Shown here: piece after piece, positions 142-30,306 of the stretch
Layout of the letters: each line of letters begins with the position of its first letter
Position numbering within the stretch: the stretch's first letter is position 1
Assembly: GCF_001561915.1 (NCBI RefSeq)
Contig: NZ_LSKU01000001.1
Location: 1,969,280-2,007,085, forward strand
DNA: 37,806 nt
Direction of reading: 5' to 3'
DNA from: Tepidibacillus decaturensis
Lineage (GTDB): Bacteria > Bacillota > Bacilli > Tepidibacillales > Tepidibacillaceae
Position numbers and translations under genes: made by a program
Notes under the pieces: model-generated
Told to the model about the DNA's origin: nothing
Seen by the model: only the letters and a program-made list of their open reading frames with translations
Database searches by the model: none

Positions 142-300
142 AAGTTTGTATATTCCATCGCGCTCCGTCATCCGTGCCCTTCTATGAATAAAGATTAAGG
201 AGAGAAAGGCACTTCTGAAGGCACACAAAGTGTACAAGTCGTGCTACACAGCTAAAGCTGCTAGTCACGCTATGTCACAGCTTATGGAATATACAAACCC
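142..300. repeat. Inverted-repeat element A1 (159 bp) with internal structured hairpin
   Basis: A perfect 15-bp terminal inverted repeat, GTTTGTATATTCCAT at 144-158 and its complement at 284-298, bounds the element. Inside the left arm is CGCGCTCCGTCATCC, then a hairpin of GTGCCCTTCT (174-183) with AGAAAGGCAC (203-212). The loop contains ATGAATAA and TAAGGAG. A further stretch of about 60 bp (221-280) holds a second hairpin around AGCTAAAGCT. Element A2 at 11364 has the same arms, the same CTCCGT block and an equivalent hairpin with compensating stem changes. It has no coding capacity. It could be a MITE-like mobile repeat, a structured RNA, or both. Confidence 0.7.
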
Positions 301-341
301 TTAAATGACAAGTGGAGGAAACTTTTACTTTCTTAATCTTT

Positions 342-379
342 AAAAAAGTGAGTTGTCGAACGACAAACTCACTTTTTTG
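342..379. terminator. Bidirectional intrinsic terminator
   Basis: AAAAAAGTGAGTTGTCG pairs with CGACAAACTCACTTTTTT around a short loop, giving an A-tract stem and a T-tract on both strands. The stop codon of yutD lies inside the stem, so it mainly ends the minus-strand yutD transcript. Confidence 0.85.
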
Positions 380-10243: not shown

Positions 10244-10374
10244 GATCTCCCTTACTATATTTTTCGAGATAAATTTCAGGTCAATTTTACCATTTTCCTT
10301 TATACATAGAAAAGGAAACTTTTTTAAAAACTATTTAAATGAATTGAACTAAAGATGATTTTGGAGAGATGGAA

Positions 10375-11361
10375 ATGAGACTGTTAAACAAACGATTAAT
10401 ATGCACTTTAATAATTATCAGCTTAGTTTCAACGATTCCTATACAGAGTTTAGCTAAAGGAGAACAAGACGATCTGTTTCAAACGAGAATGGAGCTATAT
10501 AAAACCATGGATAATATTTATCAAATCCCATGGTACTATATTGCAGCCATTGATCAGTATGAAAGAAATATTCAACCTGTCAGGCAGGATCTTCCTATAA
10601 AAAAAGGTCTAATCAGCATCTATTTTTCAAAAGAAAAATGGGCCGGTTTTCTCAATCCAAATCCCGAAGATCAAAATCCAATGCGAATTCAGTTTTTTAA
10701 TGGTTTTGGTGTAGATGGGGATGGGGATGGTTTAGCTGATCGAAATAATGATGCTGATGTTCTTGTTGCTTTTTTAAATTATCTAAGTCGGTATGGGACG
10801 ACAAAAGATAGCCTCAAGAATGCTTTAATGGATTATTATCAAAGCGAGTTACCAGCCAAAATCATTGATGAAATCGCTCTCATCTACAAAACCTTTAATA
10901 CCCTTCAATTAGCAGAACGGGTTTTCCCAATTCCCAAATGGAACAGTTACTCCTATCGAAGTACATGGGGAGATACAAGAGGCTGGGGAGGGCGAAGAAT
11001 ACACGAAGGGACTGACATCTTCGCTTCTTATGGTGCAGCAGTACGAAGTGTTTCTTATGGGTATGTTGAAGTCCTAGGCTGGAATAAATATGGGGGGTGG
11101 CGTGTTGGAATAAGAGATACAAACAATATTTATTATTACTACGCTCATTTAACAGGGTTTAAAAAAGGATTAAAAGAAGGAGATATTGTCAAACCAGGTG
11201 ATGTCATCGGATATGTTGGAAGTTCTGGTTATGGCTCTCCAGGTACGCAAGGAAAATTCCCCCCTCATTTACATTTTGGTATGTATAAATATAATGGCCG
11301 TCATGAGTGGGCATTTGACCCTACCCCTTATTTACGTGTTTGGGAAAGAAAAAGAAAATAA
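10375..11361 (+). CDS. lytH: LytH-type spore cortex endopeptidase (M23/LytM)
   Basis: A 328-residue secreted zinc peptidase. A signal peptide (LICTLIIISLVSTIPIQSLA) precedes a helical domain that resembles a degenerate transglycosylase fold, with an acidic GVDGDGDGLADRNNDADV loop that could bind calcium. The C-terminal LytM domain has HEGTDI (zinc ligands H210 and D214), YAHLTG (H258) and HLHFG (H298 and ligand H300). Architecture and length match B. subtilis LytH (YunA), an L-Ala-D-Glu endopeptidase that leaves single L-Ala side chains in spore cortex. The start at 10375 is six bases after GGAGAG; the ATG at 10369 abuts that site. The gene has no conventional terminator, and repeat A2 starts two bases after its stop. 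Confidence 0.85.
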   Translation: MRLLNKRLICTLIIISLVSTIPIQSLAKGEQDDLFQTRMELYKTMDNIYQIPWYYIAAIDQYERNIQPVRQDLPIKKGLISIYFSKEKWAGFLNPNPEDQNPMRIQFFNGFGVDGDGDGLADRNNDADVLVAFLNYLSRYGTTKDSLKNALMDYYQSELPAKIIDEIALIYKTFNTLQLAERVFPIPKWNSYSYRSTWGDTRGWGGRRIHEGTDIFASYGAAVRSVSYGYVEVLGWNKYGGWRVGIRDTNNIYYYYAHLTGFKKGLKEGDIVKPGDVIGYVGSSGYGSPGTQGKFPPHLHFGMYKYNGRHEWAFDPTPYLRVWERKRK

Positions 11362-11363
11362 AA

Positions 11364-11469
11364 AAGTTTGTATATTCCAACGTGCTCCGTTGTCCGTGTA
11401 TTTCTTTTAATGAATAATAAGGTAAGAAATACACTCCCAAAAGTCGCTACTTATGGAATATACAAACTT
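11364..11469. repeat. Inverted-repeat element A2 (106 bp) with perfect internal hairpin
   Basis: AAGTTTGTATATTCCA (11364-11379) and its exact complement at 11454-11469 bound the element. Inside lie CGTGCTCCGTTGTCC and a perfect 11-bp stem, GTGTATTTCTT (11396-11406) with AAGAAATACAC (11424-11434). Its loop holds AATGAATAATAAGG. Compared with A1 the stem differs at two adjacent pairs on both strands (CC/GG becomes TA/TA) and a mismatch is repaired, so pairing is kept while sequence drifts. A1 has about 50 extra bases 3' of this hairpin. It sits between lytH and the metH riboswitch promoter. Confidence 0.78.
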
Positions 11470-11497: not shown

Positions 11498-11700
11498 TTG
11501 ACAATTTGCTGATTCTCGTACAAACTAGAAGAAATAACAAAAGCATACTTCACTTCTATCCAGAGTGGTGGAGGGATCTGGCCCTACGAAACCACAGCAA
11601 CCGGTCGAATGACCATGGTGCTAATTCCAGCAGAATTTTTCTGGAAGATAGGAGAATCGTGAATACACGTAGCCCTCTCCTATTTTGGTGAGGGTTTTTT
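11498..11700 (+). promoter_or_regulatory. SAM-I (S-box) riboswitch with terminator, upstream of metH
   Basis: A TTGACA -35 box (11498-11503) with a weak -10 near 11520 precedes the leader. The aptamer spans about 11553-11654: P1 strands CTTCTATC and GATAGGAG, then the S-box core CAGAGTGGTGGAGGGA, CTGGCCCTACGAAACC, the CAGCAACC block and a kinked P3/P4 region. The terminator is CCCTCTCC (11673-11680) with GGTGAGGG (11687-11694) and six Ts. The 3' strand of P1 (GATAGGAGA) is also complementary to TCTCCTAT in the terminator, giving the expected antiterminator. Bound SAM should therefore stop metH transcription. Confidence 0.96.
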
Positions 11701-11767
11701 CATTATAAGATTCCTAGGGAATGTATATTATATGTATACATCTCCATATTATGAGGAGGGAGAAACA

Positions 11768-14700
11768 ATGAACAAAATAGATCGTTTAAAACAACAAATG
11801 GAGCAAAAAATCCTCATTCTTGATGGTGCAATGGGTACAATGCTACAAAATGCTCAATTAACTGCCAAAGACTTTGGTGGAGATCAATACGAAGGTTGCA
11901 ATGAAATTTTAAATCTAATCCGTCCAGATCTAATTAAACATATCCATCTTACTTATTTAGAAGCAGGAGCAGACATCATTGAAACGAATACTTTTGGAGC
12001 TACCCCAGTTGTATTAGCAGAATATGGACTTGAAGACCGAACTGAAGAAATCAATCTTGCTGCAGCAAAGATTGCAAAAGAAGCTGTTGATCAAGTTTCT
12101 ACCCCCGAATGGCCACGCTTTGTCGCTGGCTCCATGGGGCCAACAACCAAAACCCTTTCTGTTACAGGTGGGATTACATTTGATCAATTATCGGATTCAT
12201 ATTATCAACAAGCAAAAGGATTAATCATCGGTGGTGTAGATTTACTTTTGTTAGAAACTGCACAAGATACACTTAATGTGAAAGCGGCTGGAATAGGAAT
12301 TCAAAAAGCTTTTGCAGAATGTAAAGTAGAATTACCTGTTATGATTTCAGGCACGATTGAACCGATGGGTACCACTCTTGCAGGTCAAAATATTGAAGCT
12401 TTCTACATCTCCTTAGAACATTTGAAGCCCATTTCCGTAGGACTAAACTGTGCAACAGGGCCTGAATTCATGCGTGATCATCTCCGTTCCCTCTCGCAAT
12501 TAGCTACAAGTGCAGTTAGTTGTTATCCTAATGCCGGATTACCAGATGAAGATGGTCATTACCACGAGTCTCCCAAAGCCTTAGCTGAGAAGATGTCGCA
12601 ATTTGCAAAACAAGGTTGGTTAAACGTTGCAGGTGGATGCTGTGGCACTACACCAGATCATATCAAAGCTCTTTCAGAAACATTAAAAGAATTTAAACCT
12701 AGACGATTTCAAAAGGAACATCTCCCTGCCGTGTCAGGAATTGAGCCAGTTTTTTTAGAAAAAGAAAATCGTCCCCTCTTTGTAGGAGAACGAACGAATG
12801 TGATCGGTTCTAAGAAATTTCGAGACCTGATTGCAGACGGTAAGTATGAAGAAGCCTCTGAGATTGCCCGTGCTCAGGTAAAAGGCGGCGCACAAGTGAT
12901 CGACATCTGTTTGGCCAATCCTGACCGTGATGAGTATTTCGACATGGAGCAGTTCCTACAATATGTAGTCAATAAAGTCAAAGTACCGTTTATGATTGAT
13001 TCAACCGATTCAAAGGTAATTGAGCTTGCTCTAAAATATTCTCAAGGAAAAGCCATCATCAATTCAATCAATTTAGAAGATGGCGAAAGACGTTTTCAGG
13101 AGATCGTCCCACTCATTTTACAATATGGTGCAGCCGTTGTTGTTGGAACGATTGATGAAAAGGGAATGGCTGTTACGAGTGAAAGAAAATTAGAAATAGC
13201 TAAACGTTCTTATGATTTGCTTGTTCATCAATATGGAGTAAATCCTCAAGACATTATTTTTGACCCATTAGTCTTTCCAATAGGAACAGGTGACGAAGCA
13301 TATATTGGATCTGCAAAAGAAACGATTAAGGGAATTCAACAAATCAAGGAAGCTTTTCCTGAATGTCAAACCATTCTTGGCATTAGTAACGTTTCCTTTG
13401 GGTTACCCCCTGCTGGTCGTGAAGTATTAAATGCTGTTTTTCTTTACCATACAACACGTGCCGGCCTAGATTATGCTATTGTGAATACACAAAAGCTTCA
13501 ACGCTATGCTTCCATTCCAGAGGAAGAAAGACAATTAGCTGAACAATTGATTTTTAACACAAATAAACAAACCCTTGCTCAATTTGCTGATTTTTATCGC
13601 AATAAAAAAGTGATCAAGGAAGAAACTAGTATCAGGTATCCATTGGAAGAACGGTTAAGTAACTATATCGTGGAAGGATCAAAAGACGGCCTGATTGATG
13701 ACTTAAAAGAAGCCCTTAGCCGGTATACTCCTTTAGACATTATCAACGGCCCTTTGATGAAAGGAATGCAACGTGTTGGGCAACTATTTAATGACAATGA
13801 ATTAATTGTTGCCGAAGTATTACAAAGTGCTGAAGTGATGAAAACGGCCGTTTCCTTCTTAGAGCCTTATATGGAAAAAAACGATTCTACACAAAAAGGA
13901 AAAATTCTACTTGCTACTGTAAAAGGGGATGTCCACGATATTGGGAAAAACCTTGTAGAAATTATTTTATCCAATAATGGTTACGAAGTAATTAACCTTG
14001 GAATTAAAGTACCTCCCGAACAATTAGTGGCTGCTTTTAAACAGGAAAAACCTGATGCCATTGGCTTATCTGGACTCCTTGTTAAATCAGCACAACAAAT
14101 GGCCATCACTGCTCAGGATCTAAAAACCGCTGGGATTGATGTTCCCCTTCTAGTAGGAGGAGCTGCATTAACAAGAAAATTCACTGAAAACAAAATTGCA
14201 AATGAATATGATGGACTTGTTTTCTATGCAAAGGATGCAATGGATGGGTTAAATATCTTAAACCAGATTAGTGATGAAGCCTATAAAAACGAACTTATTG
14301 CTGAATTACGAAAACAGCGCCAAACAACTGCTGATATGGGTCATACTGACAATATAATAAATGATTCAGTCTTGACCAATAAAAGTATCAAGCGTTCATC
14401 AACCAGTCAAAACGTACCTGTTTTTCAACCGCCAGACTTCGATCGTCATATTTTGCGGAATTATCCAATTGATTTTTTGTATCCTTATTTAAATATGAGG
14501 ATGCTACTCGGAAAACATTTAGGGATCAAAGGAAATATTGAGCAACTTCTTGCTCATGGTGATGCTAAAGCTTTCGAGCTAAAAACAGCGGTCGAACAGC
14601 TACTAACGGAAGCAAAAAATAAAAACTTCATAAAAGCAAATGGAATGTATCAGTTCTTCCCTGCTCAGTCGCAAGAAAATGACATTCTTGTTTACGATCC

Positions 14701-15223
14701 AAAAGATTATTCAAAAGTGATTCAGCGTTTTTCATTCCCAAGACAGCAAGAGGAACCCTATTTATGCCTAGCTGATTTCCTTCGACCTGTAGAAAGTGGT
14801 GTGATGGATTCTGTTGGATTCTTAATAGTAACCACTGGTCAAGGGATTATCGATCTAGCTTCAGAGTGGCGAGAAAAAGGAGATTATTTACGTTCTCACC
14901 TCTTGCAAGCAACTGCCTTAGAATTGGCCGAGGCTTTTGCAGAAAGAATACATCACATGATGAGAGACATCTGGGGCTTCCCGGATCCTTCAGAAATGAC
15001 TATGGTAGAGCGGTTCGCCGCCAAATATCAAGGAATTCGGGTTTCATTTGGCTATCCAGCTTGTCCTAACCTTGAGGACCAAAAGAAATTGTTTGCCTTA
15101 CTAAATCCTGAGGACATTGGCATCCACTTAACAGATGGCTTTATGATGGAACCAGAGGCTTCTGTTTCAGCAATGGTCTTCGCTCATCCCGAAGCCAGAT
15201 ATTTTACCGCTGTTAAATCTTAA
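11768..15223 (+). CDS. metH: Cobalamin-dependent methionine synthase
   Basis: A 1151-residue, four-module enzyme that moves a methyl group from 5-methyltetrahydrofolate to homocysteine via cobalamin. Residues 1-310 form the homocysteine domain with zinc ligands Cys228 (GLNCATG), Cys291 and Cys292 (GGCCGT). About 340-600 is the pterin domain (FVGERTNVIGSKKFRDL). About 635-870 binds cobalamin, with the cap helices and DVHDIGKN, His723 being the cobalt ligand. About 900-1150 is the SAM-dependent reactivation domain, ending RVSFGYPACPN. All key residues are present. The ATG at 11768 has GAGGAGGGAG just upstream; an in-frame ATG 12 codons earlier lacks one. The gene is under the SAM riboswitch and faces the metPS importer across a shared terminator. 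Confidence 0.97.
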   Translation: MNKIDRLKQQMEQKILILDGAMGTMLQNAQLTAKDFGGDQYEGCNEILNLIRPDLIKHIHLTYLEAGADIIETNTFGATPVVLAEYGLEDRTEEINLAAAKIAKEAVDQVSTPEWPRFVAGSMGPTTKTLSVTGGITFDQLSDSYYQQAKGLIIGGVDLLLLETAQDTLNVKAAGIGIQKAFAECKVELPVMISGTIEPMGTTLAGQNIEAFYISLEHLKPISVGLNCATGPEFMRDHLRSLSQLATSAVSCYPNAGLPDEDGHYHESPKALAEKMSQFAKQGWLNVAGGCCGTTPDHIKALSETLKEFKPRRFQKEHLPAVSGIEPVFLEKENRPLFVGERTNVIGSKKFRDLIADGKYEEASEIARAQVKGGAQVIDICLANPDRDEYFDMEQFLQYVVNKVKVPFMIDSTDSKVIELALKYSQGKAIINSINLEDGERRFQEIVPLILQYGAAVVVGTIDEKGMAVTSERKLEIAKRSYDLLVHQYGVNPQDIIFDPLVFPIGTGDEAYIGSAKETIKGIQQIKEAFPECQTILGISNVSFGLPPAGREVLNAVFLYHTTRAGLDYAIVNTQKLQRYASIPEEERQLAEQLIFNTNKQTLAQFADFYRNKKVIKEETSIRYPLEERLSNYIVEGSKDGLIDDLKEALSRYTPLDIINGPLMKGMQRVGQLFNDNELIVAEVLQSAEVMKTAVSFLEPYMEKNDSTQKGKILLATVKGDVHDIGKNLVEIILSNNGYEVINLGIKVPPEQLVAAFKQEKPDAIGLSGLLVKSAQQMAITAQDLKTAGIDVPLLVGGAALTRKFTENKIANEYDGLVFYAKDAMDGLNILNQISDEAYKNELIAELRKQRQTTADMGHTDNIINDSVLTNKSIKRSSTSQNVPVFQPPDFDRHILRNYPIDFLYPYLNMRMLLGKHLGIKGNIEQLLAHGDAKAFELKTAVEQLLTEAKNKNFIKANGMYQFFPAQSQENDILVYDPKDYSKVIQRFSFPRQQEEPYLCLADFLRPVESGVMDSVGFLIVTTGQGIIDLASEWREKGDYLRSHLLQATALELAEAFAERIHHMMRDIWGFPDPSEMTMVERFAAKYQGIRVSFGYPACPNLEDQKKLFALLNPEDIGIHLTDGFMMEPEASVSAMVFAHPEARYFTAVKS

Positions 15224-29477: not shown

Positions 29478-30260
29478 ATGGCAATTGATTTTACATATCA
29501 AGGTGTTGAATATAAAACCTTAGTTGAATTAGCAAAAGCATTACCTTTAAATTCTGCCAAACTTGTACAATGGACAGAGGATGCGGATCGCTTTGCTGCT
29601 GAAGCTGGTTCTCTTTGTTATGAAAGTGAACCTCGATTAGGTATCGTTAATCATTGTAGAGATAGTGGTCATAATACGGTTTTGGAACATAATATCTTTA
29701 GTTTCGTTAAAAAAGTACCAATCTTTGTTGCAAGACAGGATATGCGTGCCCGTCATGCTACTTTTGATGAACGAAGCCTTCGTTATGTTCGGTTAAATAA
29801 TGGAGGATTTGAGTATTACATTCCACCAGAGCTGAAAAAGCCTGGTCGGGAGCAGGAATTAGACCAATGGATTTATCATCATGAAAAAGCTTTTGAATTA
29901 TATGGCCATTATACAGACGAAGAAATTATGGAAAACGAACGAGCTAGAGCTATCCTACCTTTAGGAATCGCCACTATGTATACCGATTCAAGAAATGCTG
30001 TAGGCTGGCGTCATCATGCGATAAAACGGTTATGTTTAAGAGCTCAAGATGAAATCCGACTCTTGTATCGTTCCATTACTGATCAGTTAGTAGAAAAAGC
30101 TCCACGTTTGTTCGGTGACTTGGACATGCCTTGTTATATGAAACAAGGATGTGGTGAGGTTAAAACCTGTGGATTGATCGAACTCGATCCAAAAACAAGA
30201 CGTGCTGTGGCCTATGAGAAGAAGTTACAGCGTGAGCATACAAAAGTTGAATTGAAATGA
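29478..30260 (+). CDS. thyX: FAD-dependent thymidylate synthase with an altered ThyX motif
   Basis: A 260-residue ThyX-family protein; the family makes dTMP from dUMP with FAD, NADPH and methylenetetrahydrofolate. The fold is recognisable from SGHNTVLEHNIFSFVKKVPI, then FVARQDMRARHATFDERSLR and YVRL, and the C-terminal NAVGWRHHAIKRLCLRAQDE with the nucleotide-binding arginine. The hallmark RHRxxSxxxxSxR is changed here: RARHATFDERSLR (residues 90-102), with Ala91 for His and Thr95 for the first Ser. The second Ser (Ser100) and both Args are kept. Start ATG follows GGAGAGGTGAAGG; a longer frame upstream has no support. No thyA was seen in this window. Confidence 0.9.
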   Translation: MAIDFTYQGVEYKTLVELAKALPLNSAKLVQWTEDADRFAAEAGSLCYESEPRLGIVNHCRDSGHNTVLEHNIFSFVKKVPIFVARQDMRARHATFDERSLRYVRLNNGGFEYYIPPELKKPGREQELDQWIYHHEKAFELYGHYTDEEIMENERARAILPLGIATMYTDSRNAVGWRHHAIKRLCLRAQDEIRLLYRSITDQLVEKAPRLFGDLDMPCYMKQGCGEVKTCGLIELDPKTRRAVAYEKKLQREHTKVELK

Positions 30261-30297
30261 ATTAAAACCTCCCAAATCATTTGGGAGGTTTTAATTC
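30260..30297. terminator. Bidirectional terminator between thyX and the DUF5667 gene
   Basis: AATTAAAACCTCCCAAAT and its perfect complement ATTTGGGAGGTTTTAATT flank a one-base loop. The stem is flanked by A and T tracts, fitting termination of both convergent genes. Confidence 0.9.
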
Positions 30298-30306
30298 ATT
30301 TATCTA

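Follow-up and report, generated by a model that had tools for sequence, protein, structure and literature searches.

BOX of Streptococcus pneumoniae is a small intergenic repeat near gene 3′ ends, with ends that pair with each other and a middle module, not always present, that forms a hairpin of its own; it comes in several size classes and is regarded as a non-autonomous mobile element (PMC3049150). In the Bacillus cereus group, the bcr repeats (~100–400 bp) are interspersed and show signs of mobility, which has been linked to a TTTAT motif; a strain carries 39 copies of bcr1 on average (PMC6542083). A conserved structure has been predicted for bcr1 (PMC2267715). The ERIC/RU repeat of enterobacteria is an intergenic element of ~127 bp that forms one long stem-loop, and in Yersinia, ERIC was reported to affect the expression of neighbouring genes via RNA hairpins (PMC2229807, PMC2267715). 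Work on BOX, ERIC and bcr1 goes back decades, but it has proved difficult to tell if selection maintains their fold or if the fold simply follows from palindromic ends. Two other kinds of element are relevant here: REP/RAYT and the miniature elements derived from IS200/IS605 are hairpin repeats moved by single-strand transposases, and group IIC introns insert directly after intrinsic terminators in a fixed polarity.

We analysed a stretch of 37,806 nucleotides from Tepidibacillus decaturensis (NZ_LSKU01000001.1, positions 1,969,280 to 2,007,085; hereafter the window), which carries two copies, A1 and A2, of a non-coding inverted-repeat element. As in BOX, an optional internal module lies between paired outer modules. 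The element is also short (100–153 nt), non-coding, intergenic and multicopy and has terminal inverted repeats, as expected of a miniature inverted-repeat transposable element (MITE).

Results

Two copies of a folding repeat in the window

The original prediction described A1 and A2 as sharing terminal inverted repeats, a CTCCGT block and a hairpin stem that differs at two adjacent pairs on both strands. Comparison of the two copies (Table 1) bore this out. The inverted repeats are identical over 13 bp, with A2 having the same outer arms as A1 (TTTGTATATTCCA and TGGAATATACAAA) lengthened to 16 bp (AAG...CTT); GCTCCGT is present in both copies; and the two-pair double change in the apical stem is real (GTGCCCTTCT/AGAAAGGCAC versus GTGTATTTCTT/AAGAAATACAC), with one C.A mismatch in the A1 stem. 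A further double compensatory change distinguishes helix P2 of A1 (TCA/TGA) from that of A2 (TTG/CAA). The window contains six occurrences of the 16-mer end where 0.95 would be expected, and comparison of A1 and A2 folding with shuffled sequences on either strand gave z scores of −4.8, −6.8, −6.8 and −8.4. The resemblance and the folding of the two copies are beyond chance.

Two features were missed in the earlier reading. The extra 53 nt of A1 form a second hairpin module, and A1-subfamily copies run past the inverted repeat into a further small hairpin (AAGAAAGTTATACTTTCTT), of which positions 311–335 of the window are a diverged copy. A protein-coding origin of this conserved flank (ATGACAAGTGGAAGAAAG...) was set aside, as its frame shifts between copies.

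Table 1. Parts of A1 and A2 and neighbouring features in the window
Feature	Position	Strand	Details
A1 outer stem P1, first arm	145–157	+	TTTGTATATTCCA; pairs with 285–297; covaries in the family
A1 helix P1b, first arm	160–163	+	GCGC
A1 helix P2, first arm	168–170	+	TCA (A2: TTG)
A1 apical stem P3, first arm	174–183	+	GTGCCCTTCT
A1 apical loop	184–202	+	Variable across the family
A1 apical stem P3, second arm	203–212	+	AGAAAGGCAC
A1 helix P2, second arm	216–218	+	TGA (A2: CAA)
A1 optional 53-nt module	222–274	+	Second hairpin; not carried by A2 (short form)
A1 helix P1b, second arm	277–281	+	One bulged base
A1 outer stem P1, second arm	285–297	+	TGGAATATACAAA
A1-subfamily conserved outer flank	298–347	+	Small hairpin ~311–335, consensus AAGAAAGTTATACTTTCTT, diverged in A1
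Host intrinsic terminator of YutD-like gene	348–378		GTGAGTTGTCGAACGACAAACTCAC plus T run, by eye; adjoins A1
YutD-like gene	369–671	−	
M23 peptidase gene	10369–11361		A2 begins 5 bases past its stop codon
A2 outer stem P1, first arm	11367–11379	+	With extension, 11364–11379
A2 helix P2, first arm	11390–11392	+	TTG
A2 apical stem P3, first arm	11396–11406	+	GTGTATTTCTT
A2 apical stem P3, second arm	11424–11434	+	AAGAAATACAC
A2 helix P2, second arm	11438–11440	+	CAA
A2 outer stem P1, second arm	11454–11466	+	With extension to 11469
SAM riboswitch	11553–11654		Rfam; directly upstream of the methionine synthase gene
metH-type methionine synthase gene	11732–15223		

A dispersed family in five genera

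Searching the 2.96-Mb genome with the 13-mer end, allowing at most one mismatch, returned 143 matches, against six for the reversed pattern. By reading the loci, we found some forty elements with both ends, which fall into two main subfamilies, A1-like and A2-like. A covariance model built from 20 copies matched this genome 55 times and the four further genera of its family that were analysed 27, 47, 3 and 18 times. The further copies on which the original prediction depended thus exist, and the repeat is a dispersed family with at least 55 copies in the T. decaturensis genome and members in five genera in all. A second contig (106 kb) also bears copies. One apparent pairing of ends (1049542–1049869, 328 bp) was dropped as a chance pair in unrelated sequence.

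From one end of the outer stem to the other, the short form spans 100 nt and the long form (A1) 153 nt. Both forms occur in each subfamily, and the same module occupies the same slot. The module covaries as well: read by eye, its central helix is CGTG/CACG, GACG/CGTC, CACG/CGTG or CATG/CATG depending on the copy. The module is shared with a second repeat family at three loci of a relative (G002; L150, L156 and L201), which has outer arms such as GGCTTATATGTTC...GAACATATAAGCC, and one T. decaturensis copy (L101) has a different hairpin in the module slot. The copies that we read in another relative, G004, are of a 68-nt form that lacks most of P3, with three in tandem.

In Rfam, the A1 region stayed below thresholds, and the SAM riboswitch was the sole match in the window above the gathering threshold. 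A blastn search with A1 against the 72,556 plasmid records of PLSDB gave no match, nor did a search for the repeat in phages. Separately, a cluster of diverged copies with outer arms of the ATTG...CAAT type lies within ~53 kb (G000 C1:2208275–2261610; L208, L209, L212 and L213), several of them with partial copies alongside. At G000 C1:2508698–2510415, a copy seemingly falls into two parts (query 21–88 and 92–158) with ~1.6 kb of other sequence between them, possibly an insertion sequence inside the element.

Compensatory changes in all helices

The whole element forms one imperfect hairpin of 31 pairs, consisting of outer stem P1, the short helices P1b (4 bp, with one bulged base) and P2 (3 bp) and apical stem P3, with a symmetric 3×3 internal loop between P2 and P3. 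In 20 divergent copies picked by hand, 92.6% of cells were paired and double changes occurred at 17 of the 31 pairs; there were 67 double-change cells, against a shuffled mean of 21.6 (sd 3.6). When the partner was slid by 1–3 columns, at most six pairs had double changes.

The original prediction had called for a covariance model and a test with R-scape. Because the 20 copies had been chosen by hand, we also applied an R-scape-like test, with a tree-preserving null and a two-set correction, to the 52 distinct copies that scored highest with the covariance model. In this alignment, which was fitted to the covariance model and so leans towards the structure, 11 of the 31 proposed pairs were significant, in all four helices, and the ten top-scoring of ~4,750 column pairs all lay within the structure. 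Supported pairs include 1–100, 8–93 and 11–90 in the outer stem, 17–83 in P1b, 25–73 and 26–72 in P2, and 32–66 to 35–63 in P3. No column pair outside the structure was significant in the two-set test. With all-pairs E-values from an exponential tail, calculated by the same method and leaving out the two-set correction, no single pair reached significance; the two-set test reported here is the usual one for a proposed structure.

The apical stems differ yet remain complementary (GTGCC.., GTGTA.., ATGCC.., GCGGT.., GCCAC.., GTTGTC.., GTCGT.. and GCTGC..), and the drift is not confined to them. The outer inverted repeats also change with compensation: the variants TTTGTATATTCCA, ATTGTATTTTACA, GTTAGATATTCTA and TTTGTGTATTGTA each have their own complement, and in other subfamilies both arms have been rewritten (for example ATTGTATTTTACA/TGTAAAATACAAT and GTTAGATATTCTA/TAGAATATCTAAC). 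Stem decay that goes uncompensated, which would have spoken against the original prediction, did not occur. The prediction had also paired drifting stems with a fixed loop, and here it stands in part: the drift is compensated and short unpaired motifs are kept, and ATGAATAA and TAAGG are found in the loops of both A1 and A2, but across the family the apical loop varies. Near-constant unpaired stretches in 25 divergent representatives from four genera are CTCCG, the TCC/TCC internal loop and AAAGTCGC.

The better-folding strand

In 49 of 54 copies, RNA parameters gave the more stable fold to the reverse complement of the strand on which A1 and A2 were first read, the mean advantage being 4.8 kcal/mol; DNA parameters did so for 50 of 54 copies. 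For A1, the folding energy is −63.7 for the reverse complement and −49.9 for the first-read strand. After clustering, the non-Watson-Crick cells in the first-read orientation comprised 47 A.C and 18 G.T, and A.C cells on this strand are G.U on the opposite one. At unpaired positions of the A1 subfamily, G>A exceeded C>T by 6 to 1, so the strand bias could be in part mutational.

On the reverse complement, the 3×3 loop becomes GGA facing GGA; such purine-rich loops are stable in RNA. The long form folds on this strand as a three-way junction, in which the 53-nt hairpin is a further branch near P1. The folding strand is also the one usually read from the neighbouring gene, with 18 of 22 A1-type copies lying in the sense of that gene.

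Terminators and gene context

The copies are intergenic. Among the 43 that we classified using simple longest-ORF gene calls, one lay clearly between divergent genes, ten between convergent genes and 26 between tandem genes. A2 lies between the peptidase gene and the SAM-riboswitch/metH unit. Promoter-like matches around A1 and A2 were no more frequent than in shuffled sequences. Another inverted repeat, at 30255–30301 in the window, also lies at a gene end; it is perfect over 23 bp with a 1-nt spacer.

Of 26 A1-type copies, 12 have an intrinsic terminator in the folding sense next to one end and none (0/26) has one on the other side; such a terminator was present in 22 of 381 random windows. 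In the A1 subfamily, the conserved flank leads to the small hairpin, beyond which an intrinsic terminator often follows; the terminator next to A1 itself was not listed by the consensus scan. The arrangement suggests that copies insert beside terminators with a single polarity. Some copies are shortened on the terminator side yet still abut the terminator (L049, L046 and the G002 copy at the A1 site), as a retrotransposon-like (SINE-like) element might. Among copies that keep both outer arms, a retro-like 5′-truncation bias stood out. However, half-copies are, in our own reading, about balanced with no clear truncation bias, and we therefore keep both the truncation bias and the polarity reading only as leads.

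Mobility

The orthologous site of A2 is empty in four relatives and that of A1 in three, and in G002 a partial A2-like copy is fused to the terminator at the A1 site. A1 is 95% identical to a copy in G002, another genus, whereas the surrounding genes match G002 at 71–78%, and one copy is nested within another (L090). Together with the copies on the second contig, these observations support mobility of the element. By eye, the flanks of some 70 copies showed no consistent target-site duplication, the empty sites being too diverged to align; in place of a duplication, the flanks show short extensions of the inverted repeat.

Among perfect-end matches, we found no long element with both ends that could be an autonomous partner. 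A search for Y1 transposases (PF01797) returned no match in this 99% complete genome, although the control search was positive elsewhere. Reverse transcriptases (PF00078) likewise had no match in the T. decaturensis genome; some are present in three relatives, but G004, which has 18 copies of the repeat, lacks them. A bridge-RNA element of the IS110/IS1111 kind, which would adjoin one end of its DEDD transposase gene, was considered but received no support: IS110 matches in the T. decaturensis genome are fragments, the stretches around IS110 matches carried no copy, and IS110 and reverse-transcriptase loci fetched from relatives had no copy on board. The mobilising enzyme may have been lost in this genome or may belong to a family beyond those searched.

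Positions 1–124 of the window are another dispersed sequence, which contains GTTTAGAAGTGGGAGACTTC and matches G002 C11:29347–29473 at 91% and C9:71412 at 79%. It resembles the non-coding terminus of an element of the IS200/IS605 type, even though the genome lacks a Y1 transposase.

Discussion

The original prediction, a structured RNA or a single-strand-recognised element inside a mobile repeat, is supported by many copies in five genera and by their compensatory changes. The reading that we consider probable is that of a non-autonomous, dispersed, modular repeat kept for its folded single strand, most likely as RNA. Copies would insert in gene 3′ regions, at or just past intrinsic terminators, and read-through would transcribe them. 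A transcribed copy might then act as a folded RNA tail, either in stabilising or processing the transcript or in recognition of the element's own RNA, and a trans-acting enzyme would spread the element.

Selection during transposition on a hairpin of single-stranded DNA would likewise yield covariation. A trans-acting transposase would read the folded strand, with pairing as the integration signal; the recognition of REP or IS200/IS605 ends by Y1/HUH enzymes is of this kind. Such an explanation accommodates the mobility of the family and the conservation of end pairing, rather than end sequence, between subfamilies. It is also consistent with the A1-subfamily orientation relative to replication, which is the same in 24 of 26 copies (taking the origin at dnaA, 2701372, and a GC-skew switch near 1.0–1.1 Mb). 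However, most of that bias would follow from gene orientation, given how often A1-type copies lie in the sense of their neighbour, and we set it aside as evidence for single-strand insertion. Together with the negative Y1 search in a nearly complete genome, this makes selection as single-stranded DNA a possible but unlikely explanation. We assign a smaller probability still to a SINE-like element that is targeted to terminators, read by shape and inserted in one polarity by a trans-acting enzyme, with ends free to change while they pair.

Long inverted repeats are prone to palindrome correction, in which the arms switch template at the replication fork, and the covariation could then have arisen with no selection in an ordinary DNA-transposon MITE. 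Several of the double changes do fall at adjacent pairs, as correction would produce. Yet correction would not have spared the unpaired loops: it would have turned TCC/TCC, CTCCG and AAAGTCGC complementary, whereas the TCC/TCC loop, although it lies between good helices, has stayed unpaired and near-constant. The outer ends are moreover not conserved in sequence, unlike transposase-bound ends, and the flanks show no consistent target-site duplication; we thus regard a corrected MITE as very unlikely. Selection that guards a folded single strand, letting paired positions drift with compensation while holding the unpaired motifs, is the simplest account. A fixed cis-regulatory RNA of particular genes would explain the conserved structure, the intergenic position and the place of A2 ahead of the SAM-riboswitch/metH unit, but the empty orthologous sites largely refute it. 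Near-identical copies occur at many different sites, and the neighbouring genes in the window are unrelated to each other. The lack of a tie to one gene or function, and of sites conserved between genera, speaks against constant regulation of any particular gene, which we consider extremely improbable.

On whether the fold of such repeats is selected, the family offers a clean case: in five genera, stems including the outer ends have been rewritten repeatedly with compensation, around fixed unpaired motifs and an exchangeable module. The old question of whether such elements are parasites, RNA devices or both becomes testable, and the terminator-side polarity is a lead on how they insert.

Among known systems, the Tepidibacillus repeat resembles BOX in its paired ends, optional hairpin module, size classes, location near gene 3′ ends and non-autonomous nature. 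Judged by the description of BOX, it differs in lineage, in the compensated drift of its ends, in having an identifiable better-folding strand and in the terminator-side placement of one subfamily in one polarity. Like the bcr repeats, it is an interspersed mobile repeat of Bacilli, but TTTAT is not a recurrent flank here (bcr1 being compared by description). ERIC/RU belongs to an unrelated lineage, and the modular long form and drifting ends set the Tepidibacillus repeat apart from it. Unlike REP/RAYT and IS200/IS605-derived elements, the repeat resides in a genome devoid of Y1 transposases, is longer and has conserved internal loops; unlike group IIC introns, it has no reverse transcriptase in its own genome, and its window matches no intron in Rfam. 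By analogy, the repeat may work in a BOX-, ERIC- or bcr1-like way. We regard it as a novel family of repeats that are small, modular, mobile and conserved in structure and that, on the present comparisons, can be assigned to none of BOX, ERIC and bcr1.
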